Assembly: GCA_028693395.1 (NCBI GenBank)
Contig: JAQUVJ010000006.1
Coordinates: forward strand, 1 to 51,257
Direction: 5' to 3'
Source: Candidatus Nanoarchaeia archaeon
GTDB taxonomy: Archaea > Nanobdellota > Nanobdellia > Woesearchaeales > JAQUVJ01
Length of the DNA stretch: 51,257 nt
The position numbers and the translations under genes were made by a program. Of the stretch, positions 210-29,855 are shown piece after piece (position 1 is the first letter of the stretch; each line of letters opens with the position of its first letter). The notes under the pieces were generated by a model. The model did no database searches, was not told the origin of the DNA, and saw nothing but the letters and a program-made list of their open reading frames with translations.

Positions 210-3200
210 ATGAAATTTTATAAAATGTTTTTAATTTTAATTTTTACATTTATATTTTTAAATACAAATATTGTTGCACAAAATGATAGTATAATTAATA
301 ATACTATTAATGAAACGTTTTTTGAAGAATTATATATATCAAATACAAGTGTAACAAACACAAGTGTAACAAACACAAGTGTAACAAACACAAGTGTAAC
401 AAACACAAGTGTAACAAATACAAATGTAACAACAATTTTAAAAGAAAATGAAACAATTTACTTAAATAAAGAATGTATTGATAATTTTGATTGTGGAAAT
501 TTTTCATGTGAATATCCTAAAAATATTGTTTATTATTATTCTTTTTATGACAATCAAATTTTAAATTATTATAATGATTCAAAATCTTGTTGTGTAGAAA
601 TTTGTACTGAAGAGATCCTTGAAGAATATACATGTGAAAAAGATATAATTTTTGAATACAAAAATGACTTAATAGACGCTTATTTAGAATCTTTAAATTT
701 AAAAAAAAATAATGAAATTTTATTTTATTCAAATACAAAAATACCATTAAATCTATTTTGTGTTGATATTCAAGATTATTTTTATGAAAGCCAAATAAAA
801 GTTGAGAAAAAAGTTTACGATATTGAATATAATGTTTTGTACACATTAATAAGATTATTATCTGAAAATAAAATATTATCAAATCAACCATTGGAATATT
901 ATTTAGAAAATTTTATTTCAAATATGACTAATGATTCAAAAGATATATTAAAAATTGGAAGTGATATTACAAATAATGAAGGATATTCAGAATTTGTATA
1001 TAAAATGGAAAATAAACCATTAAATAATTTTTATTTAACTGTTTCTTATAAAGGTAACAAATCAAATATGATATCTTCAGAAATTAGAAAAATATTATTT
1101 ATAGTTGAAAAAAATAATGAAATTGAAAAATTAAAAAATATTGATATTAACGATAGTAAAAAATTAAATGAAGATTTTGATTTTAAAGATGTCAGAATTA
1201 TTGATATAAATAATAATAAAGCAATATCAAATTTTAAAGATTTAGAATCTGAAGAAAATATTTATTTATCAAATGATTCGATAGAATATATTGAACCATT
1301 ATTTATTGGAAACAAAGTAAAAATTAACAAAATAATCTTTACAGAAAATCAAAAAGATTTTGTTGAAGTACCAATTGAATCTCAGAATGTTAAAATATCA
1401 AAAATAGAAAATGATTCAATTGAAATAATTAAGCAAGATGATAATGATTTTTTTAATCAATCAATAAAAGATCTTTTAGACAAATTCAAAAATGAAACTT
1501 CTCTTTTTATTGAAAATATAGAAAAACAAAAAGAATTAGAAAATGAATTAAGTGAATCATCAGGAATTTTAAATATAATAAAAAGATATAATTTAAAAAA
1601 AGACATAAAAATAGTTGAAGAAATTATTGAAAATTTTAAAAAAGAAGATGTAATTGATTTTATAAAATCAAGTATAAAAGAACATTCTTATGAAACAAAA
1701 AAAATAAATTTAGATGAAAATTTAAAAAATGATTCAATGTTGGTTGTTTCATATGAATTAAATGCACCAGAATTAATAGAATCTGTAAAAGTTGAAAATG
1801 AAAATATAGTTAAAAAAATTTTGGTATATTCAAATTCAACAATAAATTATGAAAACATAAGAAGTTTTACAACTATAAAAAATACCCATATAGATTTTAT
1901 AGATTTCTTTTATATTAACGAAAATCAAGAAAAAATTAGTATAAAAGAAAATGAAGATTATGACTTACAATTTATTGATACAGATAAAGATGGTCTTGTT
2001 GATTTAATATCATGGATTGTTCCACATTTATCATTTAAAGAATTTGAAGTAATTTCATATAAAGAAGATTTAAGATACAATACTAGTTATTCAGGAAATA
2101 CTTTTACAATTGATATGTTTATATTTGAAGATACAAATATATCAATAAATACAGATTCAAATAGTATATTAAATCAACCTGTTAAAGTTTTTTCAGGATT
2201 AGATCAAGATTCAATGATTGAAAGAGGATATAATATTGGAAGCAATCTATATAAACAAATAACAATTAATGATGTTTCAAAAAATAATTATTTAAGAATA
2301 GAATATAAGTTATCAGGAACAGAAGATGTTTTATTTAACATTCAAAGTTTAAATAATTTATTACAAGTAGAATCAAAAAGAAAATTTGTTCAAGAATCAT
2401 TTTCATATGATTTAGAATCAGAAAACAATAAAATAAGATTTAAAACTTGTTCTTTTGATGATTTTTTTATGGATTGTTTAAAAAGTGAAACATCAGTAAA
2501 TAATAAAGGATTAGAATTAGATTTTATAAATAATAATCAAATAACAAAACAAATTACAATACCTAAAAATATAGATATATTAAATTTCTTATTGAATTTA
2601 GATGTTAATTATGAAAAATCAATTTCAGAAATAAGTTATTCACCTTATTCAAGTTCCGATGTTGGATTTGAAATTTTTGAAGATCAAAACAAATTGGTGA
2701 TGTATAAATATAGAACATTGGAAATTTATGATTTAGTATCTAACTCATCAATTTATTCAGAATTAAAATCAAGTTCAATTAAAAAAATATTAAAATATTC
2801 AAATTATTTTTATTTAATAGATAGTGATGGAATATATTTTTATGATTTAAATGGAAATTTATTAGCATCTAATAATCAAGTTTCAATACCACAGGATTTT
2901 AAGATAGGAAAATTTGAAAATTTAATTTCAATATATAATTCATCTTCACAAAATAATATATTAAGTTTAAATAATAGTGAAGCAGTTTTTGATTTATCAA
3001 AAATTAATTCCTTTGATGATTATGGTAGATGTTATGTAGAATTTAAGGTAAATAATAACAATAATTTAATAAATTCTCAACTTCAAGTTAGTTTAGATTC
3101 TAACATTTACAACTTTAATTCTTTAATTAATTTAAGTAGTCAAAAAGAAATTTATTATGGATCAAATAATTTTTATCCATATTATTTTATAGATCAAGGA

Positions 3201-6200
3201 TTTAGTGCAAATTTATCGGTTAATAAAGATTTATTAAATCCTTCAGATTGTTTGTTAGGATTACCAATTTATAAAATAGGAAACCCTTCAACTTTTAATA
3301 TAAAAACAATTAATGATGATATTGTTGTTAATTCAAATCAAATACCAGAATTTAACAATAACAATATTTTAACAGCAAATAATTTTAGTGTAAATAAGTT
3401 TTCCACATCACAAGAATTAAATGTTGGTTATGACAATTCATTCTTTAATGATGCACAAAATTGTTATTTAGAATTTAATATAAATAAATATAACAATCCA
3501 TCTTCATTATCATTTGAATTAAATAATAATATATATAACATTAGTTTATTAAATTATAATTCGAATTCTATAAAAGAATTATTAGGTCATAGTCTTGAAA
3601 ATAAATTATTATCCTCAAACTTTTATGAAATTGAAATTAATGATATAGAAGATTTTTCAGGTTCAAAATGTTATCTTTATAGTTACATAAATTCATATGG
3701 AGATACAAATGGAAATTTATTTGAAATAAATATTAGTAATTCACAAAAAACAGAAAATGTTTTTTCATCTACAACATTAGAAGGTTTAGAGGATTACAAT
3801 AAAAATTTTATATTACTTAATTCAATAACAGAAACTGATTTTGTAAATTTTAAAATTGATAATTTAACAGAAGCACATTTTACATATGATATTTTAAAAT
3901 CAGGAATATATTCATTTAATAATGAAGTAAAATCAAATCAATGTTTTGTTTCTTTTGAAGTTTGTTCAAAAGGTAGTCCAGGAGAATTATCTTTGATTGT
4001 TAGTGGTCAAAAAAAATCAAGTAAAGAATATACTTCATTAGGAAATTGTGATGAATCAGATTTTAAAAAAGTTTATTATGAAGTTTCATGTAATGATCTA
4101 AAACAAGATACTGATTTGATTTTATCTTGTGCTTTAGACCAATGTAATTCTAATAACTATTATCAAATAAAATCATTTAAAAATTTAAATTACGGAAAAT
4201 CAAAAGAATTTATTAGAGGAAGTGGTCCTCAAGTTTATAATCATGAATTTAATATTGAAATATTAGCAAACGATTCATATTATTCTACAGAATTAATAAC
4301 AGAATTTGATTGTAATTTAATAGAAAATGAAAGTATTATTTCTTATTATTTTGAAAATAATCAAGATGGAGGTTATGGTTTAATTGGTTCTTCAAAAAGC
4401 ACATTAGATTATAATTTATATGAAAATGATATTTTGAAAACAGAAGGAATTAAATTTAAAATTTATACAAACAAATCTTTAGAAAAAGATAAAATAATAG
4501 AATATATTGATTGTAATGATTTAAAAAATGATAATGAAATAAGATTTTTAGAAAATTCGCAAAATTCATATGCAAACATATTAGGAGATAATTCAAATCC
4601 ATTTTTAAAGATTAATAAATACAATAATGAAATTTATACTTATTTTAAACTTTCATGTGATAATTTATTTATGAATAATTTTGAATTAAATTTTTCAAAT
4701 AATGATGAAGAAAACAAATATTTAGTATTATTTGATTATGAAACATCAGGAGTAAAAATTAATTCAAACCCTATAAATTATGGTGCAGATTTCAAAATAA
4801 AAACAAATAATACAAAAAATTATCAAAAAATATCATATGAACTTGATTGTAATCTATTGGATACTTCATCTAATCTAAAATTATCATGTCCAACTTGTGA
4901 TGATAATTCTTATTATAATGTAATTATGGATGAAGATGAACCTTCAATAAACTTTTATGGTATTCAAAGTCAAGGTAATGATAACATATTAATAAAAGAT
5001 TTATCAAATAATTTTTATTTATTAGATGCTTCTTTAAATAATTTAAAAAATTATTTAGGATTTTCATCAATTCAATATGAATTAGAGGATATTGACTCAA
5101 GTTCAGGTGATGAATTATTGATATTAGATTCTTCAGGTTTTAAATTATATGATAATAAATTAGAATTAAAAAATTCAATAACAGAAATGTATAATAATAA
5201 ACAATTTATTTTAGATCAAAACTATATATATATTTTAACAGGAAATAATCAAATACAAAAATATAACAAAACAACTTTTGAAAACGTAGCAAATTTTAGT
5301 ATTAATTCAGAATACAATATTAAAAAAATAAAACAAGGTTTTTTTAGAGGAAATAGTGGTTTTTTCATATCTTATCTAGCAATAGATAATTATTTAGGTT
5401 TTTTTGATAATTCTTTTAACGAAATAGAAAAAATAAATGTAGATATCTTAGGAGATTTTTATTCTTATTCAAATTCAAATAAAATTTTCTTTTTATCAGA
5501 TAAATTAAAACTTGTTGATTTTGGAAAAAGTGATGTAAATTTATCAATAAATGGTGATTTAATAAAGACTTATATAATGGATTCAGAAATATTAATTAAT
5601 GAAACTTACTCTGGATCTTTTATTTCAAATATTTCAAATTTTTTAGGAACGAATTGTATAAATGATTGGTGTACCATTGATTTTGAAATAGAATCAACAA
5701 ATAATTTAATTATAAAAGATTTTGAAATAAAATTTGATTATAAATTATATGATAAAATATTGTTAGAAGAGGCAGAATATAAATGGTCAAAAACTGATTA
5801 TGTATCAGAAGATGAAGAATTATTTTTTGAAGCGTATCCATTAAATTATTTATATTCTGAAATGCCAGTATTAATTAATATATTATATCATACATTTTTT
5901 TCTGAACCTTATTCACAATATGATATTTATGGTAGATTATTGTTTGAATTATCTAAATGTAATGTTAATAGTAGAACTATGTATTTAGAAACATGTAACT
6001 CACAATTTTATTTGAATAATCAAAATAGAAAAACAGACTATATTTGGTATAATATGAGTAACAAAGTAAAACCTTTTTCAATTGAGACATTCAATGGACA
6101 AGAAGGTTCTATGAATTATGTTGGAAAAATAATTAAAAGAATTACAAGTTATAATCAAGAAGTATTTACTAATGTAAAATTAAATATAGAATTAGAAAAT

Positions 6201-9200
6201 GAAAGTTTATATGAAGGTAAAAGAAATTTTTATATTAAATATAATGAAACAAATAAGATAAAAATAGAAGAAATTCAAAATTGTTCTATTGGTTTTGAAG
6301 AAAAAATATTTAACATAGATGGAATTGATTATAAATTTAAATTATGTGATAAAATTGAAAATAATAGTTATTTTGTTGAAATAATTCAACCAATTTTAAA
6401 TTATTCAAATGCTTTTTTATCAAATATGACTTATGCTCTTTATTATGAAAATAATTTAGCACCTGAAGTTATTGATTTTAATGTAAATGTAACGCAAGAA
6501 TATTATGGAAATGAAATAGGATTTAATGCATCAATTATGGATTTAGAATTAGATAATATTTCAATAAAATTACAATTTAACAGACAAGTCTTTGGAGATT
6601 TAGGATGGACAACAATTAAAGAATACAATTTTTCAAATCCTTTAGGTTTATTAAATATTTCAAATGAAGATATATTTTACAATTTATCTTCAAATTTAAT
6701 TGAAGAATCAAACGATGGAAATGTTAGATTTAGAATTATTGTAAATGACAGAAATGCAACAAATTACAAACATGATGAGTGGACAAATTCATCAGAAATA
6801 ATAGTTAAAGTTATTAAACATAATTTATCAATTAATGTAAATTTTGATTCAAAAAAATACCTTTATAATATAGAAGTATACGATGAAAACATAGGAGATT
6901 TAATTTCAAAACCACAAATAGTATCTTTATATAATAATAATGATTTATACAATTCCATAACACTTGTAAATGGTAATGGAAGTTTTAACATAAATTCAAC
7001 ATTTTTTGGAATATTTGATCCAAAAATAATAATAGAAAGTTCAAATGAATTTACTTATTATGAAAAAGAATTTGAAGATTTTAATGTTGTTAGAAGATTA
7101 GATCTAAGAGTAGAAAGTGACACTGATTTAATTATAGGTCAAGAAAATAATATTAAAATATCAATAAAAGATTATGACAATCAAAGTTTGGTTATTGAAA
7201 ATCAAAGCGAATTGGAAGGATTTATTTTGATGATTAGTAAAGTTGGAAATGCATCAAATTATCAATTAGTAAATATACCTTATAATATAACTACAGGTTT
7301 AGCACAAACAAATTTTAATCTAAGTTGTTTAGATAGTGGTCTTTATAGTATATCAATTAATTCTATGGTTGGTACAATTTTTACAAATTCAAGTTATAAT
7401 TTTGTAGATTTATCAAGTGATTTTTATAAATATTTAAAATTAAAATTAAACCTATCAAAAACAATTGTAAGATATCAAGATTCATATGGAGAAGGTATAT
7501 TATTAAAAAATGAAGATGAAATAGAAGTAAAAGTAGGTAATAGATATTATTTAACTATAACAAACTTAAATGATACAATAGAAAATTGTGATAATTATCA
7601 AGGAGATTTGAGTAGTTTTTATTGGAATATTATAACATCAGATTCAGAATCAAAGATAAATCAAAAAAATATTGAACAATATATTAGTGCAGAATCTTCA
7701 GGAAACATTAATTTAATTTTTAATAATTCAGATACAAACAGATATCAAATCATTGATTCATTCCAAACATCATTAAAATTATCTAGTTATATAAAATTAA
7801 TAATGGATTTACCTTCTCAATTAAATAGAAGTTTAAATTCTATAAATCCAAATTTAGATATAAATGTAGAAATTGTTACAGATGAAGGTTTAAAAATTAA
7901 TGAATCTCCAATAAAAGATAATTACAATTTATTAGAATGTAATTTCTATATAAAAAAGAATAATCAAGAATATGAAATATTAGGTCAAAGTAGTGTTGAT
8001 GATAATGGAGAATGTAGTTTATCAAAAACAATGGATTGTTCATTTATTCCTGAAGAATATAATATATATGTAAATATTTCTAATATAAGTTTACTAGAAA
8101 ACACTTCATTTGGTCTTGATATGGATGAAATAAATAAAGATTTTGTATTAAAAGATCAAAATTTAAATTTAACAATTGAGGGAATAAATGAAGAATATTT
8201 TTGGGGTGAAGAAATAAGATTAAATCAAATAGATTTTAAAGATTCTTGTAATTCATTTAATGATAGAATTTCTCCAAAATTATTAATAAGAGATTTAGAT
8301 ACAACTTCATCTTTTGATTTTTATATATCAGAAGATTCATCTTATATTATTAGTGATCAAATTTATGGAAATACAAATTTAAGTTTTACATTAAATGCTC
8401 CTTATTATAATTTTACAACATCAGAAAAAATTCCAATAAATGTAAGTAGATATTATAAAATAAAATCATTAACAGGACCTTATTATATAAATTTAGGAAA
8501 TAATCAATATTCATGTTCAATTTCAATTATTGATTCATACAATTCAAGACAAGATTTCAGAACAAGTAAAGAAAATATTTCAGTAAAATTTTATTTAAAT
8601 AATAATGAGTCTGATTATGTTATTTCGCAAACTAACAATTTAGGAGTTGCAACTGCAACACTAAATATTCAGAATTCAGGTATGAATAAAATATATTGTA
8701 AAATTGAAGATAATTCAACAAAGATGCTTTATATTTATGATAATGTTTCATCTATAAAAACATTTAATTCAGTAATAGCAGATAGTTTAATAATTGATGA
8801 TTTGTTTGCAAATAATAGAGAATATTCTTATTCATCAACGGTTGCAGATAGTTGTAGAAATTTTATTGCAACAAGTAAAGATGAATTTAATGAATTGACG
8901 GTTTTTAGACAAGATGTTCCTTATAAATTAAATGAAGTAGGAGAAGATTTGCATTATTATGATGAACCAAATGCAGTTTATATTGGAGCTAATGTTAAAG
9001 TTTTAAATGTAGAAACAATGCAACCAGAAGTAATTGATAATGTTACTTTATACTTAAACATAAGTAAAAATGGTGTTTTTTATAAACAATTAAGTTGTAA
9101 AGTTGATTTAGATAAATTTAATTCTAATCAACATATAAATTATACAAGAAGTCCAAATGAAATTGTTGCTAATTATTGTGATGACTATTATACAAATTAT

Positions 9201-12200
9201 TCTTGTATAATAAAATGGGAAATGGATAGTTCAATGAATGTTGGTTCATATAATTTATCTGTTTATGCTTATTTAAATGGAGTTCAATCTCCAGTTCATT
9301 ATTTAGACAAAACAGTTGATGTATATGGATATTTAATATCTTCAATAAATCAATCAACTAAAGACTATTTAACTCAAAAGACATTTACAAATTCAACAGT
9401 AAAATTAAATGCTATAATTTTTGATGATTCTGGATTAAATCTAATGAATCATCCAAACTTAACAATTCAATGGAGATACGCAATAGATGAAAATTCATTT
9501 TGGAATATCGGTCAAGGAGATGGTTTTGAATGGAATTTGTCATTACAACCTGCACAGGATTATAGATATTATGATATGGATACTTATAAAGGATCAGCAA
9601 GTACTGTTTGGTTATATTCTTATGCACCATATTATGTAAATACTGATTATTATATTAATGGAAGTACAAAACCTTATGAAACAATAAAATTTAAAAAATA
9701 TGATGAAGTTTATAGAATGGAATTAACAAAATATAGACCTTATCATTATTTATATCAATTTGTTGCAAAGCAAAATATTGGTGCATCATTTTATTCTTTA
9801 CCAGGACAAACAAAATTGGAATATGATAAAGATACAGGTGATTTAGATATATATTGTAGACCAATTTGGGTAAAATCAGATGGAACAAATAATTCAATAT
9901 CTTTGTCATATAATATGGCAATTAATTGTTTAAATTGTAATGAAAGTGGAAATAACGAATCATTATCAGTTCCAATTTTGAATGTTGATGGAATTTATTT
10001 AGCAAAGAGAACATTTAATTGGTCAAAAGAAGGAGATAATAAAGAATATAATTTCACTTGTGAATTTGTAAATAATTCAATATATTATTCAGTAGGTTCC
10101 AAAACACAACAATATAAAATATATAGTTACTTAGGAAGTGGAGAAGGAAATTGTAATAATGATAATTTTTGTAATATAACAATGGGAGAATCTTGCGGAG
10201 GATGTCCAAGTGATTGTGATATTGATATATGGATGACTAGTTTAAATAATACATTAGGAGAATCAGCAGGACTATTTTATAAATTTCCATTAGGCTATTG
10301 GAATTATAATAGAACAATTTGGAATAATTCTGCAGGACAAATAAATCAATTTGAAAATTTTACATATAGAACTGAAGAAGTAGGTATGGATTATTCTTGT
10401 GGATGTAATTTTGATGGAGTATGTAATCCAACTTACGAAAATGCACTAACTTGTGAAGATTGTACATCATCTTCAACTGTTTATGCAACAGGAGTTGGTG
10501 AAAATGGAATTTTTGAAATAAGAAAGAAAGTAAATGATGAAAGAGATCATTATTTAAAATCCACAGAAGAAGTTTATTTAAATTTGTATATGTCTTATTA
10601 TGAATTAGGAACAAAACCAAATAGATTAGAATTATTAGGAACAGAAAATTCTTTTAATCAAACCTTTACTATTACAGTTGTTGATAGTAAAATTAAAATA
10701 GAAAGAGATCAATTATTTTTCACAATACCATCCACAACTAATTTAACAATTAATTTGTATCATGATGTTGAAGGTCAGAAATTTTCATTAAATAGTTCAG
10801 AAGATATAAGGGTAATAATAGATGATGATATTCCAACAGTTGATAGTTTTAATATAATCGGAGGATTAGGAGATAATTCAAATGTTTTTGGATCTTTAAA
10901 AAGTACTTTTGGAATTGAAGTAAATGTAAATGAAACTCCTATCACAATTGAAAAAGTAGAAATTGATATTGGAAATGGTTATAATAATTTAACTTTTGAT
11001 TCAGCACGTGAACTTTATGAAAAAGAAAGTATAATAACTAATCAAACAGGTTCAAATGTTCCAGTTACATTAAGAATTATTGATCAAGCAGGAAATGTAT
11101 ATTTAAATAATATTTCTTATTATCAAATAGACAATATTCCACCTCAAATTACTAATTATTTTGTTGAATACAAAGGAATAATTTCTAGTTTTCAAAAAAA
11201 TGAAATAGACAATATTGTTATATGTGATGGTTGTAAAATAAATGTTTCATTTGATGCAATAGATACCCCTCAAGTATTATTAGATAGTACTTCGGCAAAA
11301 ATTAATAATAACATAGCTTTTCTTCTTGGAGGAAGTTATAGATATGAAAATATTTCATTATCTGGTGATGCATCAAAACCAATTACATTAAATATTAATG
11401 ATTTATTTGGAAATATTAATCAAACAATTTTTAATATAAAAATAGATACAGGATTACCTGTAATCAATTCTTTTGTAGCAAATTCAACAATTTTAAAATC
11501 TCATGATATGGTTTTAATTTCATATAATGTTCAAGAAGGAGCTTCTACTTATGTTACAAATTTAGATACAGTAATTATTTCAAATTCAACTCATGTATTT
11601 TATGAAAAAAATAATATAAACACTTTAAGTGATATAGATTCTTTCGTTTTCGAAATTAATAAAACAGAAACTTTAACTTTAACTGTTAAAGATGTTGCAG
11701 GAAATATAATAACATCTCAAAATTTAAATTTAGTTATTGATGATACCAAACCAGGATTTATAAATTACCCTACAAATAATTCTTGGATAATAAATAATAA
11801 TTCAAAATCAATAGATTTATCATTTACGATTTATGAATTTAATTTAAATATTTCATCAGTAAAATATAAAATAGATTCAGGAGAATTACAAACACCAATA
11901 TTAGTATCATCTAATAGTCCAAACATTAATTTTGAAATTCCAATTGTTCAATCAGAAGGTATTGAAAATACTAATTATAAGATTACAATTGTTGCAACAG
12001 ATTTAGCAAATAATCAAAATCAAACAGAATTAAATTATAAAATTGATACAAAACCACCAATATTATCTAGTGTTTTTCCAGAAAATTACACTACAAATCA
12101 AGCTAATTTTAACGTTGAAGTTAATTATACAGAAAATCAATTAAATAAAATAAAATTAAATACAAATACATTTACAGGATGTACAAATGGAACATCATCA

Positions 12201-15200
12201 TGTTCAATTTTATTTACTACATCAACAACAGATCGTGCAGATAGTTTTACAATAGAAGTTGAAGATTTAGCAGGTAACAAAGTTCAACAAACTATAAATT
12301 ATAAAAAAGATACAATGGCACCTCAAGTATCTATTCTTGAACCAGCTTGGAATTCATATTTAAGAGGTTCTTTTTTAATGAATTTCTCAATAGATGATGT
12401 TGGAGATGAATTTGATTCATATATATTAAAAATAAATGGAATTGAAAAAGATACATATAAAGGAATTGAAGGAAATTTTAATTTTCTTATAGATACAACA
12501 CTATACCCTTCAAATCAAAATAACATTTCAATAATTGCTAATGATTCATTAAATCAAATAGCATCAAATAATATGACTTACATATTTGATAATATAAAAC
12601 CAGAAATTAATCAATATTATATTAATGATTCAATTGTCAAAACAAATCAATCAGTAACAATTGGATTAAATTTAAGTGATAATATTTTATTAAAAACATT
12701 AAAGTGTAATGATATTATACAAAAAGATAACATTAATTCAAACACATTAAATTTTATAAATTCATCTTTTAAGATAACATCTAATCAAATAAATTGTATT
12801 GTTATAGATTATTCAGGTAATTCTGAAGAAGTAGTAATTAATTATGTTTTAGATGATATAATGCCATATTATTCTATTAAAACAAATATAACAAAAATAG
12901 ATAATAATTATTATTCAAGAAGTGATCAAAATATTGATTTTATTGTAAATATTAGTGATGATGATGGACTTACAGGAGGAATAAAATATGCAATATTAAG
13001 TAGATTATCTAATATTTATCCTTTTAGTGATTTTTCAGGAAGTGACTCTTCTGAAATTCAAAAGATTATGAGTAAAAAACTATCTGATTTTGATTGTAAT
13101 ATAGATGGTGATTGTGATATATTTTTTGAAATTTCTGATGAAGCTGATAATAGTTTAATGACTTTCATAACAAGAATTGTAGATAATACACCACCAAGTA
13201 TATCATCTGGTAGTTTTGTAGATAATTATATTAATTCAAGCCAATATGTAAATTTATCATTTACACTTCAAGAAACAAATTTTTATAACATGACAATAAA
13301 TGATGAGATAGTTGAAAAAACAATAGATAATACATATAATTATTATAAATTATCTTCATTAGTTCCAGGAAATTCCAATGAATCATTAGGAAAAAAAATA
13401 ACAGTAAAAGTTTTTGATAAAGCTTTTAATTATATGGAATATCAATTTAATTATACGCAAGAAGACACTTTACCACAAATTTCTGTATATCTAAATAAAT
13501 ATCTAAATCCAAATGATCAATATAGAATAAATGCTAATGTAACAGACACACCATCTAATAATGTTCATAATGTTTCATATTTAAATAATTTATTTACAAA
13601 AACAGAATCAAATTCATGGATATCAAATTTTTTAAAATTTAATTTTAGCCAATCAAATTATTACAACATTACAATAAAATCAAGTGATGCAGCTTCAAAT
13701 ATTAATGAAGTTAAATATGAAATATATTTTGATAAGGATAAACCAACAATTAATTCAATTCAATTTAGTAATGAATATAATATTTCAAGCACATTAAAAC
13801 CAATAAATATAACCGCAAGTTTTGATGATAATTTTGTAGATAATGAAAAAATATTATCAAAAGTTTATTTGTTAAAAAATGAAGTTACTGAAGTTGATAT
13901 AACTGATGACTTTAATCAAACTACAAAAGTATTGAAAAAAGAATTAAGTATGTCTTATTTAAATTGTCAACCAAATCAAAATTGTTATTTTAAATTAAAA
14001 ATATCAGATTTAGCAGGAAATAATGAAACATCATCAAGATTATCAGTGTATTTTGATAATGTTGCACCACTTATAGATTTGACAAGTTTTCAAATAGATG
14101 ATTTAACAAAAGTCGAAAATAATTATTACATGAAAACATCATCATCTCATAATATATCATTTAAATTAATAGGTGATGAAGATAATTCAAGTATAAAATA
14201 TTTTAAATTAAATCATTCAGGAAATCAATATCAATTAGAATATAAAAATTTAAGATGGCGTTTAGATAATATAAATATTCAAAATCAAAATTTTATATTT
14301 GATATAAGAGATTTAGCTGATTTAGATAATTTAGATAAATCCTCAAAAACATTTACACAAATAAAATTAGATGATACAAATCCAACTTTAATAAATTTTA
14401 GTGCTAAGAAAGAATCAGAAGCAGTATTTATTAATAATGGAACGCATTATTTCAATTCAAATTCAGATTATTTCTTTTCTGCATTAGTAAATGATAATAT
14501 TCAACCAAATCAAACATTAAATGTTTCATTAAATTATACTCAAGTAGTTAATTTTATACCAAAACCAGCAAATAATGGTGTTTATGAAATTTTTAATACA
14601 AAAATGTCACAATTAGGATTTGCAACAGATTTTAATGGATATCAAAATATTACAATATTAACAAAAGATTATGCAGGAAATTATAATATAACAAAAATAC
14701 CAGTATATATTGATAATACAAATCCAATAATAGATAGAAATTCATTTGTTTTAGGTTCATCAACTGCAATTTTTAATTCAGATCAATCACCTTTAGGATT
14801 TTCTATATTAAATACAACATTCCCTGATGCAAATGTAACATTTGAAATAAATGCAAATGATTTTTCAGGAATTAAAAAAATAGAAGGAGAAATTTATCAA
14901 TTTACAAATACATCAAATAATCATCAATTTGAATTTGAATTTGAAGATGGAAAATACAAATATATTTTTCAAGCAATAGAATATTTAAGTGCTCCAATAG
15001 AAGGTGTATTTATTTTAAAAATAAAAGCATACGATAATGTTTATAATTATATTGAAGAAAATTTTTCATTTGCTTATGCAATAGAACCACCAGTAGTTTC
15101 AATGTATGAATTTAGTCAAGAACATATTGAAACAAATAAAGAATTTAATTTTACAGCAATACAAGCAATTGATAATACAATAGCAATTAATAAATTTAGA

Positions 15201-21200: not shown

Positions 21201-24200
21201 TCAAATAAATTATTTGAAATAGAATCAAATGAAATTACAAGGCCTACAAATATTATTAATTATTCAAATAATATTAATTTATTAACATACAATGATATTA
21301 TAGGATTAAATTCTTCATTAGAAAGAAATTATACTTTTGAGTTTGAAAATGAACAATATCCAATAAATTTTGTATTAGATATTGATAATGATAAAAGTAT
21401 TTTAAAGCAAAGATTTAATCAATATAATATTTATCCAGAGTATGAAATAAATTATGAATTTAAAGAATTAAAAGAAATAAACACTTATAATTATTCATTA
21501 AAAAATACAATTGAAATAGATAATGTTAGATATTTTACAATTCCAGTTGCATTACAAAAATCAAGTTTAGGATTAGTAGAAATAACAACAAATAGTATAC
21601 ATGAATCAATTTTTGATTTACATAAAATAAGAGATGAGATTATATCAATAGCATATAATGATGTAAGAGAAATTGTACCAATAAACATATCATTTGAGTT
21701 AGATGAAGAAATAAAAATGAATAAATTTAATATTTCTTCTAAACCAATTATTAAAACTGAAGATGTATTAATAGTTGCATCAGAAAATATATTAAAAACA
21801 TTAACAATTAATACTTCAAATCTATCAAATGGAGATTATTTATTAAATACATATGTTATTGATAATAGCAACAATGTAATTACAAATAATAAAATATTTG
21901 ATGTTAATAATAGAATTAATTTAATAAATCCAATTTCAGTTGAAGATTCAACAATTAATACTAAATTCGAATTATCAATTTCAACAACAAAAGAAAATTT
22001 AGATAACAAATTATTTTCAGATGAAATAAATAATTCAGATAATTCTACATTTAATAAAACAATTTCAAATAGAAAATTAAATTTGAATGTAAATTTAACA
22101 AAAGATATTTTATTTAACAATTCAATTAAAACAAATATTTCATTAGAATTTAAAAATATAACATTAAATGTAGTAAATGAAACAGCAGAAGAAATATTAA
22201 AAATAAAAGATGTTGATAAAGAAAAAATAATTCAAGCACCAAACGGAACTAATCCATATATATTTTTAGGTTTAAGTTTACATGCTAATTTTTCATTTGA
22301 TAAATCAACATTTGGATTTAATTATAATGAATCTTTTGAAAAATTAAAATCAATAGGATCAACACCTCAAGAAGACAGATTAAGAGTTTATACTTGTCAA
22401 TATTATGATGAATCATTATGCTTACAATCAGATTGGAAGATGGTAAGTGAATATGAAATTGATAAAGTTAATAAAATTATAAAAGCAAACACAACTCACA
22501 CATCATCTTGGTTAGTATTAGAACAAATTCCAGCTGGAGATGATGGAAAAACTGATTTAGATAAGGCAATAGAATGTGCAGGAATTGGAGGAACATGGAA
22601 TAGTGTTACTAAAATATGTTACATAAGTCCAAAAGATGATTCAAGTTCAGGTGGATCTAGTGGTTCAAGTTCAGGTGGAAGTATTGGTTCAAGCTCTGGA
22701 GGAGCAACAAGTCAAGATTTAAATGGATTATTAGAACAACTTGCAGGATTAAATTTATCAAATATTTATTCATATAGTTGTGGAAATGGAGTTTGTGAAG
22801 AATTTGAAACAATTGAAAATTGTCCATCAGATTGTTTACTTTCAGATTATAACGCATATTTAGATGTTTCAGACAATATATTATTAATAAATTCTTCAAA
22901 TTTATTTAAATTAAAATTAAAAAACAATTTAAATAAAGACTTAAATGTAACTTTAAGAATAGTTGGTGATTTATCTGAAATCGTATATAATAATTCAAAT
23001 ATAGTAAATTTAAAAGCAAATGAAGAAATTAATTATACAATAAATATAAAAGAATTAAATGAAACAAAATTCATTAATGGTTTAATAATATTAGAAAGTA
23101 AAAACAAAGAAACAAGATTACCATTAACTTTTGAAATATTAGATCTTTTTGAATACACATTTAGAAAATCCTCAAAAGAAATTACAATATTAAATAGGAA
23201 AATTAATTTAAATGAAACAATAGAGTTTAAATTATTTTTAAAATCTAGTATATATTCACCATCAAAACAAGCAGAATTTGAAATATACATAAAATCTCCA
23301 AATTCAACAGATATTATTAAAAGAATTAATCAAACAAAATTAATTGAATTTAATAAAGAAATATTGTTTAATATTTCAAATGAAGGAATTAGTGAAGGTA
23401 AATATATTTTATATTTAGAAGAAAAAGCTTCAAAACAAATTATTAATACAAATATTGAGATATCAAAACCAATAATATCTCAAAAAACATTATTAATATT
23501 AATATACATTTTTTCAGGATTATTTGGAATAGTAATTATAACAATTGCAGGAATTAAAATTAATAAATATAAAAAATCAAAAATTGTATTTATTAAACCA
23601 AGTTCAAAAGTTCCAAGAAATTTACCTGACAATTTTTGGATGGGTAAGATTGCTCAAACTCAAGAAAAGGCATATTTTGATCCAGATAAATTAACAACTC
23701 ACACATTAGTTGCAGGTTCAACAGGATCAGGTAAATCAGTTACAGCATCAATTTTTGCAGAAGAATGTCTAGAACATCAGATACCTGTAATTATATTTGA
23801 TCCAACAGCACAATGGACAGGTTTTGTAAAACCTTGTAGAGATGAAGTCGTTTTAAAAACATATTCACAATTCGGATTATCTGAAGATGATTCAAGATCA
23901 TATAGAGGATTAATCTATAATGTAGAAAATGAAAATATAGAAATTAATTTTGATAAATACATCAATCCAGGTGAAGTAACAGTATTTAACTTATCAAAAT
24001 TAGATACAAAACAATATAATTTAGCAACAGAAAAGATTATTCAACAATTATTCAAGTATGGATTTGAAGAAACTCCACATTTAAGAGCTTTAATTGTATT
24101 TGATGAAGTTCATAGATTACTAGATCAATACGGAGGACAAGGAGGATATCATTCATTAGAAAAAGCAGCAAGAGAATTTAGAAAATGGGGATTAGGACTT

Positions 24201-24659
24201 TTAATGATTTCACAGGTTTCAGCAGATTTCAAATCAGCAATTGGAGGTAATGTTTTAACAGAAATACAATTAAACACAAAATCTGTTACAGATATCCAAA
24301 AAGCTGAAAGTAAATACGGAGATGAATACTCAAGAGCAATCATTAAACAATCAATAGGAATGGGAATGATTCAAAACCCACATTTCAATGATGGACATCC
24401 TTGGTTTATTCATTTTAGACCACCTTTACACTCTCCACACAAGATTTCAGATGAAGAATTAGAGACATATGATAAATTAGCAAGAGAATTAGATTCAATT
24501 GAAGAAAAAGTATTAACAATGAAAGAAAAAGGAGAAGATGTGTCTGAAATTGAATTAGAATTAAATTTATCCAAGAAAAAATTAAAAGAAGGTAAATTCA
24601 AGATGACTACAATATACATCGACAATTTAAAAGAATCATTAAAGAATTTTAATCTTTAA
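210..24659 (+). CDS. Giant surface protein with cytoplasmic HerA/DUF87-type ATPase domain (8149 aa)
   Basis: One uninterrupted frame encodes a protein of roughly 0.9 MDa. Residues 1-24 form a Sec signal peptide (basic start, hydrophobic core, ending VAQ). The ectodomain is rich in Asn, Ser and Thr with many N-x-S/T sequons. In order it has NTSVT repeats (about 45-74), propeller-like stretches (about 870-960 and 1630-1790), Cys modules (about 1290-1660), CxxC-type Cys clusters (about 3310-3430), around 14 Ig-like cassettes with D-x-x-P junctions (about 3535-4960), invasin-like Ig domains (about 5330-5560), another propeller-like stretch (about 6870-7050), a Ser/Gly linker (about 7480) and a CGNGVC...CPSDC motif from C7524. 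A membrane helix lies at about 7758-7780. The cytoplasmic domain has Walker A GSTGSGKS at 7836-7843 and Walker B FDE at 7964-7966, as in HerA. The ATPase class is secure; an adhesive or contact role is inferred. Its C-terminal 620 residues match the protein encoded from 27763. Confidence 0.9.
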   Translation: MKFYKMFLILIFTFIFLNTNIVAQNDSIINNTINETFFEELYISNTSVTNTSVTNTSVTNTSVTNTSVTNTNVTTILKENETIYLNKECIDNFDCGNFSCEYPKNIVYYYSFYDNQILNYYNDSKSCCVEICTEEILEEYTCEKDIIFEYKNDLIDAYLESLNLKKNNEILFYSNTKIPLNLFCVDIQDYFYESQIKVEKKVYDIEYNVLYTLIRLLSENKILSNQPLEYYLENFISNMTNDSKDILKIGSDITNNEGYSEFVYKMENKPLNNFYLTVSYKGNKSNMISSEIRKILFIVEKNNEIEKLKNIDINDSKKLNEDFDFKDVRIIDINNNKAISNFKDLESEENIYLSNDSIEYIEPLFIGNKVKINKIIFTENQKDFVEVPIESQNVKISKIENDSIEIIKQDDNDFFNQSIKDLLDKFKNETSLFIENIEKQKELENELSESSGILNIIKRYNLKKDIKIVEEIIENFKKEDVIDFIKSSIKEHSYETKKINLDENLKNDSMLVVSYELNAPELIESVKVENENIVKKILVYSNSTINYENIRSFTTIKNTHIDFIDFFYINENQEKISIKENEDYDLQFIDTDKDGLVDLISWIVPHLSFKEFEVISYKEDLRYNTSYSGNTFTIDMFIFEDTNISINTDSNSILNQPVKVFSGLDQDSMIERGYNIGSNLYKQITINDVSKNNYLRIEYKLSGTEDVLFNIQSLNNLLQVESKRKFVQESFSYDLESENNKIRFKTCSFDDFFMDCLKSETSVNNKGLELDFINNNQITKQITIPKNIDILNFLLNLDVNYEKSISEISYSPYSSSDVGFEIFEDQNKLVMYKYRTLEIYDLVSNSSIYSELKSSSIKKILKYSNYFYLIDSDGIYFYDLNGNLLASNNQVSIPQDFKIGKFENLISIYNSSSQNNILSLNNSEAVFDLSKINSFDDYGRCYVEFKVNNNNNLINSQLQVSLDSNIYNFNSLINLSSQKEIYYGSNNFYPYYFIDQGFSANLSVNKDLLNPSDCLLGLPIYKIGNPSTFNIKTINDDIVVNSNQIPEFNNNNILTANNFSVNKFSTSQELNVGYDNSFFNDAQNCYLEFNINKYNNPSSLSFELNNNIYNISLLNYNSNSIKELLGHSLENKLLSSNFYEIEINDIEDFSGSKCYLYSYINSYGDTNGNLFEINISNSQKTENVFSSTTLEGLEDYNKNFILLNSITETDFVNFKIDNLTEAHFTYDILKSGIYSFNNEVKSNQCFVSFEVCSKGSPGELSLIVSGQKKSSKEYTSLGNCDESDFKKVYYEVSCNDLKQDTDLILSCALDQCNSNNYYQIKSFKNLNYGKSKEFIRGSGPQVYNHEFNIEILANDSYYSTELITEFDCNLIENESIISYYFENNQDGGYGLIGSSKSTLDYNLYENDILKTEGIKFKIYTNKSLEKDKIIEYIDCNDLKNDNEIRFLENSQNSYANILGDNSNPFLKINKYNNEIYTYFKLSCDNLFMNNFELNFSNNDEENKYLVLFDYETSGVKINSNPINYGADFKIKTNNTKNYQKISYELDCNLLDTSSNLKLSCPTCDDNSYYNVIMDEDEPSINFYGIQSQGNDNILIKDLSNNFYLLDASLNNLKNYLGFSSIQYELEDIDSSSGDELLILDSSGFKLYDNKLELKNSITEMYNNKQFILDQNYIYILTGNNQIQKYNKTTFENVANFSINSEYNIKKIKQGFFRGNSGFFISYLAIDNYLGFFDNSFNEIEKINVDILGDFYSYSNSNKIFFLSDKLKLVDFGKSDVNLSINGDLIKTYIMDSEILINETYSGSFISNISNFLGTNCINDWCTIDFEIESTNNLIIKDFEIKFDYKLYDKILLEEAEYKWSKTDYVSEDEELFFEAYPLNYLYSEMPVLINILYHTFFSEPYSQYDIYGRLLFELSKCNVNSRTMYLETCNSQFYLNNQNRKTDYIWYNMSNKVKPFSIETFNGQEGSMNYVGKIIKRITSYNQEVFTNVKLNIELENESLYEGKRNFYIKYNETNKIKIEEIQNCSIGFEEKIFNIDGIDYKFKLCDKIENNSYFVEIIQPILNYSNAFLSNMTYALYYENNLAPEVIDFNVNVTQEYYGNEIGFNASIMDLELDNISIKLQFNRQVFGDLGWTTIKEYNFSNPLGLLNISNEDIFYNLSSNLIEESNDGNVRFRIIVNDRNATNYKHDEWTNSSEIIVKVIKHNLSINVNFDSKKYLYNIEVYDENIGDLISKPQIVSLYNNNDLYNSITLVNGNGSFNINSTFFGIFDPKIIIESSNEFTYYEKEFEDFNVVRRLDLRVESDTDLIIGQENNIKISIKDYDNQSLVIENQSELEGFILMISKVGNASNYQLVNIPYNITTGLAQTNFNLSCLDSGLYSISINSMVGTIFTNSSYNFVDLSSDFYKYLKLKLNLSKTIVRYQDSYGEGILLKNEDEIEVKVGNRYYLTITNLNDTIENCDNYQGDLSSFYWNIITSDSESKINQKNIEQYISAESSGNINLIFNNSDTNRYQIIDSFQTSLKLSSYIKLIMDLPSQLNRSLNSINPNLDINVEIVTDEGLKINESPIKDNYNLLECNFYIKKNNQEYEILGQSSVDDNGECSLSKTMDCSFIPEEYNIYVNISNISLLENTSFGLDMDEINKDFVLKDQNLNLTIEGINEEYFWGEEIRLNQIDFKDSCNSFNDRISPKLLIRDLDTTSSFDFYISEDSSYIISDQIYGNTNLSFTLNAPYYNFTTSEKIPINVSRYYKIKSLTGPYYINLGNNQYSCSISIIDSYNSRQDFRTSKENISVKFYLNNNESDYVISQTNNLGVATATLNIQNSGMNKIYCKIEDNSTKMLYIYDNVSSIKTFNSVIADSLIIDDLFANNREYSYSSTVADSCRNFIATSKDEFNELTVFRQDVPYKLNEVGEDLHYYDEPNAVYIGANVKVLNVETMQPEVIDNVTLYLNISKNGVFYKQLSCKVDLDKFNSNQHINYTRSPNEIVANYCDDYYTNYSCIIKWEMDSSMNVGSYNLSVYAYLNGVQSPVHYLDKTVDVYGYLISSINQSTKDYLTQKTFTNSTVKLNAIIFDDSGLNLMNHPNLTIQWRYAIDENSFWNIGQGDGFEWNLSLQPAQDYRYYDMDTYKGSASTVWLYSYAPYYVNTDYYINGSTKPYETIKFKKYDEVYRMELTKYRPYHYLYQFVAKQNIGASFYSLPGQTKLEYDKDTGDLDIYCRPIWVKSDGTNNSISLSYNMAINCLNCNESGNNESLSVPILNVDGIYLAKRTFNWSKEGDNKEYNFTCEFVNNSIYYSVGSKTQQYKIYSYLGSGEGNCNNDNFCNITMGESCGGCPSDCDIDIWMTSLNNTLGESAGLFYKFPLGYWNYNRTIWNNSAGQINQFENFTYRTEEVGMDYSCGCNFDGVCNPTYENALTCEDCTSSSTVYATGVGENGIFEIRKKVNDERDHYLKSTEEVYLNLYMSYYELGTKPNRLELLGTENSFNQTFTITVVDSKIKIERDQLFFTIPSTTNLTINLYHDVEGQKFSLNSSEDIRVIIDDDIPTVDSFNIIGGLGDNSNVFGSLKSTFGIEVNVNETPITIEKVEIDIGNGYNNLTFDSARELYEKESIITNQTGSNVPVTLRIIDQAGNVYLNNISYYQIDNIPPQITNYFVEYKGIISSFQKNEIDNIVICDGCKINVSFDAIDTPQVLLDSTSAKINNNIAFLLGGSYRYENISLSGDASKPITLNINDLFGNINQTIFNIKIDTGLPVINSFVANSTILKSHDMVLISYNVQEGASTYVTNLDTVIISNSTHVFYEKNNINTLSDIDSFVFEINKTETLTLTVKDVAGNIITSQNLNLVIDDTKPGFINYPTNNSWIINNNSKSIDLSFTIYEFNLNISSVKYKIDSGELQTPILVSSNSPNINFEIPIVQSEGIENTNYKITIVATDLANNQNQTELNYKIDTKPPILSSVFPENYTTNQANFNVEVNYTENQLNKIKLNTNTFTGCTNGTSSCSILFTTSTTDRADSFTIEVEDLAGNKVQQTINYKKDTMAPQVSILEPAWNSYLRGSFLMNFSIDDVGDEFDSYILKINGIEKDTYKGIEGNFNFLIDTTLYPSNQNNISIIANDSLNQIASNNMTYIFDNIKPEINQYYINDSIVKTNQSVTIGLNLSDNILLKTLKCNDIIQKDNINSNTLNFINSSFKITSNQINCIVIDYSGNSEEVVINYVLDDIMPYYSIKTNITKIDNNYYSRSDQNIDFIVNISDDDGLTGGIKYAILSRLSNIYPFSDFSGSDSSEIQKIMSKKLSDFDCNIDGDCDIFFEISDEADNSLMTFITRIVDNTPPSISSGSFVDNYINSSQYVNLSFTLQETNFYNMTINDEIVEKTIDNTYNYYKLSSLVPGNSNESLGKKITVKVFDKAFNYMEYQFNYTQEDTLPQISVYLNKYLNPNDQYRINANVTDTPSNNVHNVSYLNNLFTKTESNSWISNFLKFNFSQSNYYNITIKSSDAASNINEVKYEIYFDKDKPTINSIQFSNEYNISSTLKPINITASFDDNFVDNEKILSKVYLLKNEVTEVDITDDFNQTTKVLKKELSMSYLNCQPNQNCYFKLKISDLAGNNETSSRLSVYFDNVAPLIDLTSFQIDDLTKVENNYYMKTSSSHNISFKLIGDEDNSSIKYFKLNHSGNQYQLEYKNLRWRLDNINIQNQNFIFDIRDLADLDNLDKSSKTFTQIKLDDTNPTLINFSAKKESEAVFINNGTHYFNSNSDYFFSALVNDNIQPNQTLNVSLNYTQVVNFIPKPANNGVYEIFNTKMSQLGFATDFNGYQNITILTKDYAGNYNITKIPVYIDNTNPIIDRNSFVLGSSTAIFNSDQSPLGFSILNTTFPDANVTFEINANDFSGIKKIEGEIYQFTNTSNNHQFEFEFEDGKYKYIFQAIEYLSAPIEGVFILKIKAYDNVYNYIEENFSFAYAIEPPVVSMYEFSQEHIETNKEFNFTAIQAIDNTIAINKFRFIVTYNGTEEIFLPTHMKTRTGEFVPFTDFILDSYARIGTPITHFKFNYTPKYNGEYEIKYNMTNVAEVPSVDELNNNSLFISTGKINIDEFIVDINFDKCNNINCYYNQANDTIVLNNITKYDLSNFSINMTYENDANVTMYQLSMDTLMSTGVEVNESQKEIGTLLSKSNQKISLNYLIDNKKIPSTNVEEFNIKFKWYNPDKTSVDIIKTFKVFINNSYFYEIIGNNSEYNIETNEEFEIATLRLDNIGNSQLTNIKIDYNKEHEDKLNVSVLTKSINLPRLSSKNLSINITPKEVGIYNISFNVTYLGKVNVINVTINTKSLSRIIVQNSSYETINRTNKEYNLTCVVQDNVTNNNISNYNVSLRWLEGAIANLISQNKLETNESGVAVFKINISEIPVGNNTFFCEIEDNDRYEANPEYSSANKTINFLGNIREIEINRIVNSEKIYWSDYNTYNYTKMRVTVKDENLDPIINSNVTFKSNFSTGIFSEYFSCITNSLGQCDYDFNPSINQSGLYLFNVSAKALNYNLNYSNISIYVSGGIHIVLDSPIEKQNLTYNQSYNFSIRVLDENNTEILNPLSNSDILWKIYNPSNDSSFILNNSSLNFTWKVNDSAILGLNKINITVNNSEEEDNKLFEIGFIKDSITMLWKLNNTISRDEIDGYDNFINLIMNIGDYSDPINNSIVKLLFKNNNFQITQNTNEVGFVNFEINNSVNNFKDIFKLGNEQVDVEVSKENYVTKKFINLFNLLIYGYIEPKWVSPIESKYLNEINTGFFNLDLRLEEYTNKNLLNNSYEFKLYEYYPAVLPFYNVTLENNFNNIDNISEFNVSPGNHVYELDLDLKDINSYEYFFDFDDDKLNVTLEFRYSNINSSSIMKVLSQLTNFSLSNKNINKIYMYINNSLSEDSLVKINKFNIYSTEYNKIVPYGYTHILGLNDYNSLDVSMSYNKYNRPVSFYLNKAQIENEIEAINIYSNIPSDNNFTFSKNISYNCYNDNCLNLTLNNYSKGNPSFNYVNIVKSFENSLNLSEYEYIYIPIKYDNESLSNFNRMYVELQLETDLGIYYTSSLEEYSINEYYKDGWYLFGLNISSNSNGFIEYFGNKNMNKVTRMTISLYEIFEDKTNSSILIDSPILVDTDIKFVNGTISLPYYPVDYVDVYMNLSIEDKDHFIIYNESKTDNLFKIINAGITQDDGMVNLPEIGSEGGEEELQTTGISVESFELNKLDLDYYVVKNTSGLLSQIEITNLLSNEQNITLDTSKSNVIYTALGENITTISLYPGQKGIVDIFYNISNKSQNEYKEPSALIIRSSENEKQVLELNMKTLELYTNLTNPISNNEESKYSNLKYQDIIELKLNTHFNGSFLNITDNVEYSIYLNNNFSQECLIKEIGASTDLFSNILINCTLPRNIENILINNISVYSKIKDNFEDFETSGYKISDSINSIRYKDIRKPNINNVDIQYFNDTRINVSYNLSDNSKINKVYYQILNYADTNNTNIVYNTSIVNNTIKDEDFIYFELNKSQSLYDLELKLSNINASNLSIKINNEEFEKYLGNLSNNIKFYHNSEILDKIIFDSREELFYLLVPDYSTKINFSLNIRPIKENILLSNFNKYITDNYLLLSSRFEEISYLYKNEDVFGQNESKEPIITFNQRFDSLIENQDKIILINDNGIFELDVSEENLINLNLENYYNYTINFSTINAQNITVNNFTTYNSNMLNNFNFSNLIFNSSILTSGLNNFSPIRINNTFQNISNTSIIKINVNKTISNKDSLVFSINLSNQTKFNMTLKYNNCSYVTYFELGFENINKILDYKLDLISFRNKCNINTNQISINSIEMMLEKTVNKVTIDRFFTKNNLIKSPIIENISIPLNYQNYSMKSIETSLVDDLVFIINNKNGINFNNSELLTYNLTSEEFGMLKFNFSFYHIKKIIKYKDNYLMLDSARNLIYETKLDQTNVFELVNMFGQNVLYEPVDIYNIDDEFFYIVEYSANKISKYRYVSNKLFEIESNEITRPTNIINYSNNINLLTYNDIIGLNSSLERNYTFEFENEQYPINFVLDIDNDKSILKQRFNQYNIYPEYEINYEFKELKEINTYNYSLKNTIEIDNVRYFTIPVALQKSSLGLVEITTNSIHESIFDLHKIRDEIISIAYNDVREIVPINISFELDEEIKMNKFNISSKPIIKTEDVLIVASENILKTLTINTSNLSNGDYLLNTYVIDNSNNVITNNKIFDVNNRINLINPISVEDSTINTKFELSISTTKENLDNKLFSDEINNSDNSTFNKTISNRKLNLNVNLTKDILFNNSIKTNISLEFKNITLNVVNETAEEILKIKDVDKEKIIQAPNGTNPYIFLGLSLHANFSFDKSTFGFNYNESFEKLKSIGSTPQEDRLRVYTCQYYDESLCLQSDWKMVSEYEIDKVNKIIKANTTHTSSWLVLEQIPAGDDGKTDLDKAIECAGIGGTWNSVTKICYISPKDDSSSGGSSGSSSGGSIGSSSGGATSQDLNGLLEQLAGLNLSNIYSYSCGNGVCEEFETIENCPSDCLLSDYNAYLDVSDNILLINSSNLFKLKLKNNLNKDLNVTLRIVGDLSEIVYNNSNIVNLKANEEINYTINIKELNETKFINGLIILESKNKETRLPLTFEILDLFEYTFRKSSKEITILNRKINLNETIEFKLFLKSSIYSPSKQAEFEIYIKSPNSTDIIKRINQTKLIEFNKEILFNISNEGISEGKYILYLEEKASKQIINTNIEISKPIISQKTLLILIYIFSGLFGIVIITIAGIKINKYKKSKIVFIKPSSKVPRNLPDNFWMGKIAQTQEKAYFDPDKLTTHTLVAGSTGSGKSVTASIFAEECLEHQIPVIIFDPTAQWTGFVKPCRDEVVLKTYSQFGLSEDDSRSYRGLIYNVENENIEINFDKYINPGEVTVFNLSKLDTKQYNLATEKIIQQLFKYGFEETPHLRALIVFDEVHRLLDQYGGQGGYHSLEKAAREFRKWGLGLLMISQVSADFKSAIGGNVLTEIQLNTKSVTDIQKAESKYGDEYSRAIIKQSIGMGMIQNPHFNDGHPWFIHFRPPLHSPHKISDEELETYDKLARELDSIEEKVLTMKEKGEDVSEIELELNLSKKKLKEGKFKMTTIYIDNLKESLKNFNL
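342..431 (+). repeat. 15-bp tandem repeat, six copies, coding for Asn-Thr-Ser-Val-Thr
   Basis: Five nearly identical 15-bp units encode NTSVT and a sixth, diverged unit encodes NTNVT. They lie just after the signal peptide of the giant protein. Each unit carries an N-T-S or N-T-N triplet, and the N-T-S ones are potential N-glycosylation sequons. Because the unit is a multiple of three, copy-number change would keep the frame, so length may vary between strains. Confidence 0.9.
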
Positions 24660-24690: not shown

Positions 24691-24914
24691 CATTTATTAA
24701 ATAAAAGAATTAAAGAAATGAAAAACAATAAAACAATAAAAAATTATAAAACATAAAAATAATAAAAATAATAAGAATAATAAAAAAATAAAAATCATAA
24801 AAATAATCAAAATAGTAAAAAAATCAATTTAAGATAATAATTTATTTTAAAAGTGACAAAATAATAAAAAGAAATATAACAAAATAATAATAAAGGCAAT
24901 TTAAGGTGTTAAAA
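24660..24914. other. Spacer between the giant gene and the downstream operon
   Basis: The first about 40 bp are T-rich and the rest is A-rich low-complexity sequence of AATAAA-like words. No hairpin and no convincing TATA box stand out, so it is unclear whether the coiled-coil gene has its own promoter or depends on read-through from the giant gene. A GGTG ribosome-binding element ends the spacer at 24905-24908. Confidence 0.6.
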
Positions 24915-27032: not shown

Positions 27033-27036
27033 TATT

Positions 27037-27744
27037 ATGATGGATTATTTGTTAGAAATTTTATTAGTTTTATTACTTGTAGTAATATATTATTTTAAAA
27101 GTAATTATTTTAAGATAGGGAAGTTTAAGAATATAATAGGTTTTTCTTCAGGTTTAATTATAGGTATAATTTTTATCTATTTTTTAAATTTAATGATTAA
27201 AAATTATTCAGTTTTAGAGCATTTTAATTTAACATTGTTATTATGGGGATTTGTTTTGATTTTTGTTTTAAAACAATACGTATTAACAGAAATAAATAAA
27301 TATTGGGAAATTGATTTAATGTTAAACAAAATAAAATTTATTGAATATGGTTTGTCAAGTATTTTTTTGGTTTTCATTATATTTATAACAACATATTTAT
27401 CAAAACAATTAAATTTTAGAATATCATTTGCATTTATGGCTTTCTTAGTATTTTATACAATATTACTAGAAATAAATTTTTCAAAGATATTGGAAAAAGC
27501 ATATTTCAAACCACAATATAAATATGTTATTGCATTAACTATGATATTTTCATTAATTTCATGCATACTTGTAAAAATGTTTATACCAAATTTCTTAGAT
27601 TATATGTTCCCATTTATTATAGGTTTTTTTATTAATTCAATGTTTGATACAATTATTGATAAGAATAAAACATATAATATAATTTGGTTTGTTAGTGGAA
27701 TTGTTGTAGCAAATTTATTATTAATTTTAGAATTTATTTTTTAA
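27037..27744 (+). CDS. Polytopic membrane protein, paralogue of the one at 46950
   Basis: 235 residues with about seven hydrophobic segments and short loops. No catalytic motif was seen. The layout, with a G-F-x-S/A-G-L segment near residue 35 and a C-terminal FPFIIGFxxNSMFD segment, faintly recalls ZIP-type transporters, but the metal-binding His and Glu residues of that family are missing, so I do not assign that function. Blocks such as HFNLTLL-WGFVLIF-LKQY and FIEY-LS-IFLVF are nearly identical in the protein encoded from 46950. The gene starts 4 nt after the coiled-coil gene, with GTG five nt before the ATG. Its place in the operon suggests a membrane partner of the HerA-type ATPases. 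Confidence 0.8.
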   Translation: MMDYLLEILLVLLLVVIYYFKSNYFKIGKFKNIIGFSSGLIIGIIFIYFLNLMIKNYSVLEHFNLTLLLWGFVLIFVLKQYVLTEINKYWEIDLMLNKIKFIEYGLSSIFLVFIIFITTYLSKQLNFRISFAFMAFLVFYTILLEINFSKILEKAYFKPQYKYVIALTMIFSLISCILVKMFIPNFLDYMFPFIIGFFINSMFDTIIDKNKTYNIIWFVSGIVVANLLLILEFIF

Positions 27745-27762
27745 AAGAAAATGGTGTTAATT

Positions 27763-29838: not shown

Positions 29839-29855
29839 TTTGAATAGTGGGGAAT

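Follow-up and report, generated by a model that had tools for sequence, protein, structure and literature searches.

A giant archaeal surface protein with a cytoplasmic HerA-type ATPase belongs to a widespread gene cluster with a coiled-coil partner

How DPANN archaea attach to their hosts and exchange material with them is an open question. The stretch of DNA analysed here (51,257 nucleotides of contig JAQUVJ010000006.1 from Candidatus Nanoarchaeia archaeon, hereafter the window) comes from an archaeon that is small and probably host-dependent, and opens with a gene for a very long surface protein that ends in an ATPase. What might a cytoplasmic motor do beneath a surface chain of thousands of residues, and does it act alone?

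An intact gene for a giant surface protein

The giant gene comprises 8,149 codons in one open frame, which runs from an ATG at position 210 to a stop at 24659 with zero internal stops, a length that would arise by chance with a probability of about 10^-399 at the window's 20% GC. Its 5′ end is complete because an in-frame stop lies upstream of the ATG. GC content at codon position 3 is flat, at 0.06-0.10, across ten consecutive slices of the gene, and because it is uniform a frameshift or chimeric join is unlikely; the earlier reading of one intact frame thus withstood the codon-signal analysis that might have split it. The source genome is a 48-contig draft, which is the kind of setting in which a misassembly or fused pseudogene could arise, but dozens of other genomes have the same layout and a paralogue with identical domain order lies on the same contig, and with the uniform codon signal we reject this explanation as scarcely credible.

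Hydropathy analysis of the protein found only two hydrophobic helices, at about residue 6 (signal peptide MKFYKMFLILIFTFIFLNTNIVAQ) and about residue 7761. The architecture given in the preliminary description, with signal peptide, ectodomain, one membrane helix and HerA-type ATPase in one frame, accordingly stands, with an ectodomain of about 7,730 residues (Table 1). N-glycosylation sequons number 303 in the ectodomain versus 164 expected from composition, and 2 in the 364-residue cytoplasmic part; the ectodomain is probably N-glycosylated. An iterated search among the fetched proteins found no relatives of the ectodomain outside the Ig-like part and the two ends, and because most of it is thus without a detectable relative, it is on the Ig-like part that an adhesion reading rests. 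Other family members carry a subtilase in some ectodomains and beta-helix repeats in others. The copy number of the tandem repeat that follows the signal peptide could differ among strains. Rfam searches found no RNAs in the window.

Table 1 Features of the giant gene and its cluster. Positions are those of the window, except for loci marked L, which are other clusters of the family.
Position	Strand	Feature	Evidence
210-24659	+	Giant surface protein, 8,149 aa: signal peptide, ectodomain, membrane helix, HerA-type ATPase	Frame, Pfam, hydropathy, codon signal
210-281	+	Signal peptide (predicted), residues 1-24	Sequence, hydropathy
340-432	+	In-frame 15-bp tandem repeat, 6.2 copies, TNTSV units, sequon-rich, directly after signal peptide	
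1722-2129	+	Module of about 135 aa (WIVPHLS..FEV) common to other surface proteins of these genomes	
10779-15197	+	About 11 detected Ig-like repeats, about 100 aa each, residues 3524-4996	Iterated profile; Pfam Big_13 match
22848-23465	+	Two juxtamembrane Ig-like domains, residues 7547-7752	AlphaFold2 model; Foldseek RbmA/WxLIP
23481-23576	+	Single transmembrane helix, residues 7758-7789	Hydropathy, AlphaFold2 model
23634-24416	+	HerA-type RecA ATPase core, residues 7809-8069	Pfam, PDB profile, model, Foldseek
23715-23738	+	Walker A GSTGSGKS	
24102-24113	+	Walker B DEVH	
24171-24191	+	REFRKWG motif, aligns with RE-RK-G segment of HerA; putative arginine finger	
24450-24653	+	C-terminal helical hairpins, residues 8081-8148	AlphaFold2 model
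24906-27032	+	708-aa cytoplasmic coiled-coil protein, member of conserved partner family	Profile E 3.9e-87; co-occurrence
27037-27744	+	235-aa protein, about 7 membrane helices; relative not seen in other clusters	
27751-29838	+	Short paralogue, 695 aa: signal peptide, ectodomain of about 270 aa, membrane helix, intact HerA-type ATPase	
29847-36014	+	2,055-aa surface protein: signal peptide, ectodomain, membrane helix at about residue 1840, cytoplasmic tail of about 200 aa	
L038 11476-11949		HTH protein	
L044 9453-10076		HTH protein	
L047 1779-2336		HTH protein	
L049 18160-18675		HTH protein	
L052 10919-11371		HTH protein	
L054 4138-4719		HTH protein	

A HerA-type ATPase at the C terminus

The C terminus of the giant matches Pfam DUF87, the HerA central domain, above the cut-off (E 2.7e-10), and cross-matches the type III restriction model ResIII (PF04851, E 1.7e-6). 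Comparison of a 23-member profile with solved structures recovered HerA proteins, including Sulfolobus HerA (E 1.4e-14), and gave weak matches to FtsK and DotL. An AlphaFold2 model of residues 7494-8149, the last 656 (43 aligned relatives; mean pLDDT 88.1), contains in order two Ig-like domains, a helix, a RecA-type ATPase core and helical hairpins; its top PDB match in Foldseek is again Sulfolobus HerA (E 1.9e-12), with the coupling proteins DotL and TcpA among the weaker matches by sequence and fold. The HAS-barrel that is N-terminal in soluble HerA is absent from the model, in which the membrane helix leads into the RecA core. Walker A (GSTGSGKS), Walker B (LIVFDEVH) and REFRKWG are intact in both the giant and a short paralogue downstream; of 101 family domains, 98 keep REFRKWG. 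Searches by Pfam, by PDB profile and by fold agree with the initial assignment of the domain as HerA-type with Walker A and B motifs, and profile searches failed to replace it with a non-HerA identity. A further HerA-like protein, soluble and 668 aa long, is encoded elsewhere in the same genome. Assignment to a defence system was rejected, the PADLOC matches being to generic models of HerA and to a single BREX-like/Mads ATPase model.

These searches bear on two accounts of what such a motor might carry. A type IV secretion-like straw injecting effectors into the host has been proposed for the same layout in nanohaloarchaeal SPEARE proteins (PMC10266531), and the DotL and TcpA matches are in keeping with it. 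However, profile matches favour HerA over VirB4 and the CagE_TrbE_VirB N-terminal domain of VirB4 (PF03135) was not found in the window's genome, which is 88% complete, and on these grounds VirB4 membership is not supported; nor was an effector identified, and we consider such a straw improbable here. A DNA uptake motor, in which a HerA ring would import the DNA of neighbours for nucleotides or genes with a purpose comparable to that of crenarchaeal Ced, could draw on the HerA lineage and on a weak NCBIfam match to CedD (E 3e-9). That match scores 36 bits against a cut-off of 600, by which CedD identity was rejected, and we give uptake similarly little credence.

A conserved gene cluster with a coiled-coil partner

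The giant is followed by four genes (24906-36014) spaced 4-8 bases apart; the preliminary description overlooked that one of them repeats the whole layout in short form, and that three more are packed beside it. The ATPases of the short and giant chains are 73% identical over 392 residues of the helix-plus-ATPase part. We recognised no channel component among the clustered genes, which also include no NurA or SIR2 partner. Structure prediction of the 2,055-aa surface protein reached a pLDDT of 47, with a possible alpha/alpha toroid near the N terminus whose GH76/epimerase-like matches would be a weak lead only. The membrane protein at 27037-27744 has no Pfam match and shares 52% identity with another at 46950-47663, both having 7-8 helices. 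Further along the window lie an acetate kinase gene (36406-37668; Pfam E 4.8e-102), an enzyme uncommon in archaea, and paralogues at 38149-39171 and 39494-40504 that are 35% identical, have a helix like that of pilins at the N terminus and lack Pfam matches.

Recurrence of the architecture in related DPANN genomes, for which a search had been suggested at the outset, proved extensive. Of 371 genomes searched from the phylum, 67 carry the family by a helix-plus-ATPase profile (E <= 1e-40), both within the window's order and in other parts of the class, in frames of 568-12,056 aa; among the 87 frames listed, 16 are at least 3,000 aa long. One named relative is Nanoarchaeota archaeon PBR18_bin24. 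A 15,809-aa frame in contig G022:C41 was rejected as a size record, as most of the fetched N-terminal stretch reads N. Relatives of the family were not found in viral contigs, and a viral origin was rejected on this ground. At locus L055, a surface-ATPase gene (6830-10804) is broken by a stop near the membrane helix, which may be genuine or a sequencing error.

The coiled-coil protein is a conserved companion of these ATPases. Using a profile built from 20 neighbouring proteins and counting E < 1e-20 as a strong match, we found its family in 60 of the 67 genomes with the surface ATPase versus 8 of the 304 without it, and in 45 of 52 when the 15 surveyed seed genomes were left out. Within ATPase genomes, 54 of 70 coiled-coil genes lie at most 8 kb from an ATPase domain, and at many loci the genes overlap or sit close together. 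Fisher's test for this association (p 5e-52) ignores relatedness and is read only as indicating a very strong association. Weak matches (E 1e-12 to 1e-18) occur in twelve genomes without the surface ATPase (genus g166, family f82). No named Pfam family could be assigned to the protein, which gave scattered coiled-coil cross-matches only.

Six clusters contain a sigma-70 region-4-like HTH protein of 150-207 aa, a possible regulator (Table 1); the corresponding position of the window is off the contig. Mutually related small proteins, one with a DUF5752 match, are encoded at L043 9588-10814, L046 8474-9187, L052 3426-4220 and L055 5962-6792; such proteins and similar C-terminal tails are found alongside many mid-size family members.

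Paired long and short chains

A tree built on 46 domains pairs long chains with short ones of the same genome as sisters five times, with support of 99-100: the window locus, both G022 loci, PBR18/G330 (two contig ends of one genome) and G048. Identity between long and short DNA in 120-base windows reaches 0.97 in G022:C41 and 0.96 in G048; at the window locus, identical codons make up 0.71 of the pair versus 0.66 expected from usage, little excess. Recent tandem duplication or gene conversion could produce such pairs even if the two chains share no complex.

A different lineage shows long and short chains as distinct, old clades of the domain tree. Its six long chains all replace the Walker B Glu by Gly or Ser (genomes G014, G072, G201, G233, G304 and G318), whereas the short chain of each genome keeps it. 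This is the pattern expected of a ring in which short subunits are active and fibre-bearing ones inactive, although the Glu loss may trace to one ancestral event in that lineage. At the window locus a mixed ring is plausible because a tandem short chain is present, and one with fewer giant strands is at least as likely as the six giant strands first envisaged; mixing cannot be universal, because many giants elsewhere have no adjacent short paralogue. Tentatively, these pairs could represent a distinct, non-type-IV contact machine of DPANN archaea, a hetero-oligomeric HerA ring in which the long chain provides the fibre (and is catalytically dead in one lineage), the short chain provides ATPase activity and the coiled-coil protein is a dedicated cytosolic component.

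Proposed mechanism

Our preferred reading, which we judge to be about evenly balanced between right and wrong, is an adhesive fibre attached to a HerA ring in the cytoplasm, which would carry DNA or protein across the membrane where cells touch. The Sec pathway would export the long ectodomain, which would extend as an adhesive fibre to a partner or host cell; one helix would anchor the fibre, and the HerA-type ATPase would form a ring beneath the membrane, at the window probably mixing giant chains with the short paralogue. The 708-aa coiled-coil protein would bind this ring on its cytosolic side, and ATP hydrolysis would power passage of macromolecules across the archaeal membrane at the contact site. 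The cargo may be DNA, by HerA ancestry, or protein; like the cargo, the direction of transport is inferred. This reading is supported because the domain is HerA-type, its motifs are conserved, the layout and the coiled-coil partner recur, and SPEARE offers an analogue; the missing VirB4 N-terminal domain and channel component count against it.

Those same gaps would suit a chain that serves as an adhesion anchor or as a force or signal transducer, whose ATPase moves no cargo, as would the single helix per chain and a coiled-coil partner fit for scaffolding or signalling. ATP-driven changes in the ring would then alter the fibre (its tension, shedding or orientation) or report contact to the cytosol through the coiled-coil protein. 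However, the full HerA catalytic set is conserved and solved relatives among HerA, FtsK and coupling proteins include DNA translocases, and we regard the cargo-free reading as rather unlikely.

Comparison with known systems

The preliminary description found it striking that a surface protein of this size is fused directly to an ATPase. The fusion has a precedent in the nanohaloarchaeal SPEARE proteins, which share the layout: a signal peptide, an ectodomain of thousands of residues, a single membrane helix and an ATPase in the cytosol (PMC6642349, PMC10266531). Hamm 2019 interpreted the cytosolic domain as a restriction enzyme, pointed out that Woesearchaeota and other lineages have cytosolic sequences resembling it, and included at least one laminin-G domain in the definition of SPEARE (PMC6642349); Reva 2023 reinterpreted the domain as an ATPase of the VirB4/TraG kind and put forward the idea of a secretion straw, in a paper whose account of SVXNc_0300 does not mention laminin-G (PMC10266531). 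A 12,127-aa example has been reported from lineage EX4484-52 (PMC8470020). On a version of this system in the window's own lineage, our literature search returned nothing beyond the SPEARE papers.

Like SPEARE, the window protein has a signal peptide, a very long ectodomain with adhesion domains (here tandem Ig-like), a C-terminal helix and a cytosolic ATPase that is its most conserved part and cross-matches ResIII models, and a second ATPase gene adjoins it. By contrast, the ATPase of the window protein is scored as a HerA, and its neighbour is a short HerA-type copy with its own ectodomain, whereas the second ATPase beside SPEARE is a VirB4 with PF03135. The window also encodes a separate, conserved coiled-coil protein, and Pfam finds no laminin-G domain in the giant at E 0.001. 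Compared by architecture only, the window protein probably works like SPEARE and is probably its kin; because laminin-G was not found and the likeness is architectural, we call it SPEARE-like rather than SPEARE.

HerA ATPases (archaeal HerA-NurA and the defence ATPases HerA-SIR2 and HerA-DUF4297) share the RecA fold, Walker A and B motifs and RE-RK-G segment and supply the best PDB matches in sequence and fold, but the window ATPase is membrane-anchored at its N-terminal side, lacks a HAS-barrel and is not clustered with a NurA or SIR2 gene. Type IV coupling proteins (VirD4/TraG, TcpA, DotL) likewise place a membrane segment directly before the RecA motor; they differ in that the window's matches to them are weak, its ectodomain outside the cell is huge and secretion-system partners were not recognised. 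Giant adhesins with Ig-like repeats share the long tandem Ig-like ectodomain but are not known to carry a cytosolic ATPase. Relative to SPEARE, the new finding is that the layout forms part of a gene cluster that is widespread and includes a second motor gene as well as a conserved coiled-coil partner. With its fixed partner and its pairs of ATPases, in which one member is in some cases catalytically dead, this module resolves a vaguely defined giant protein into defined, testable components.
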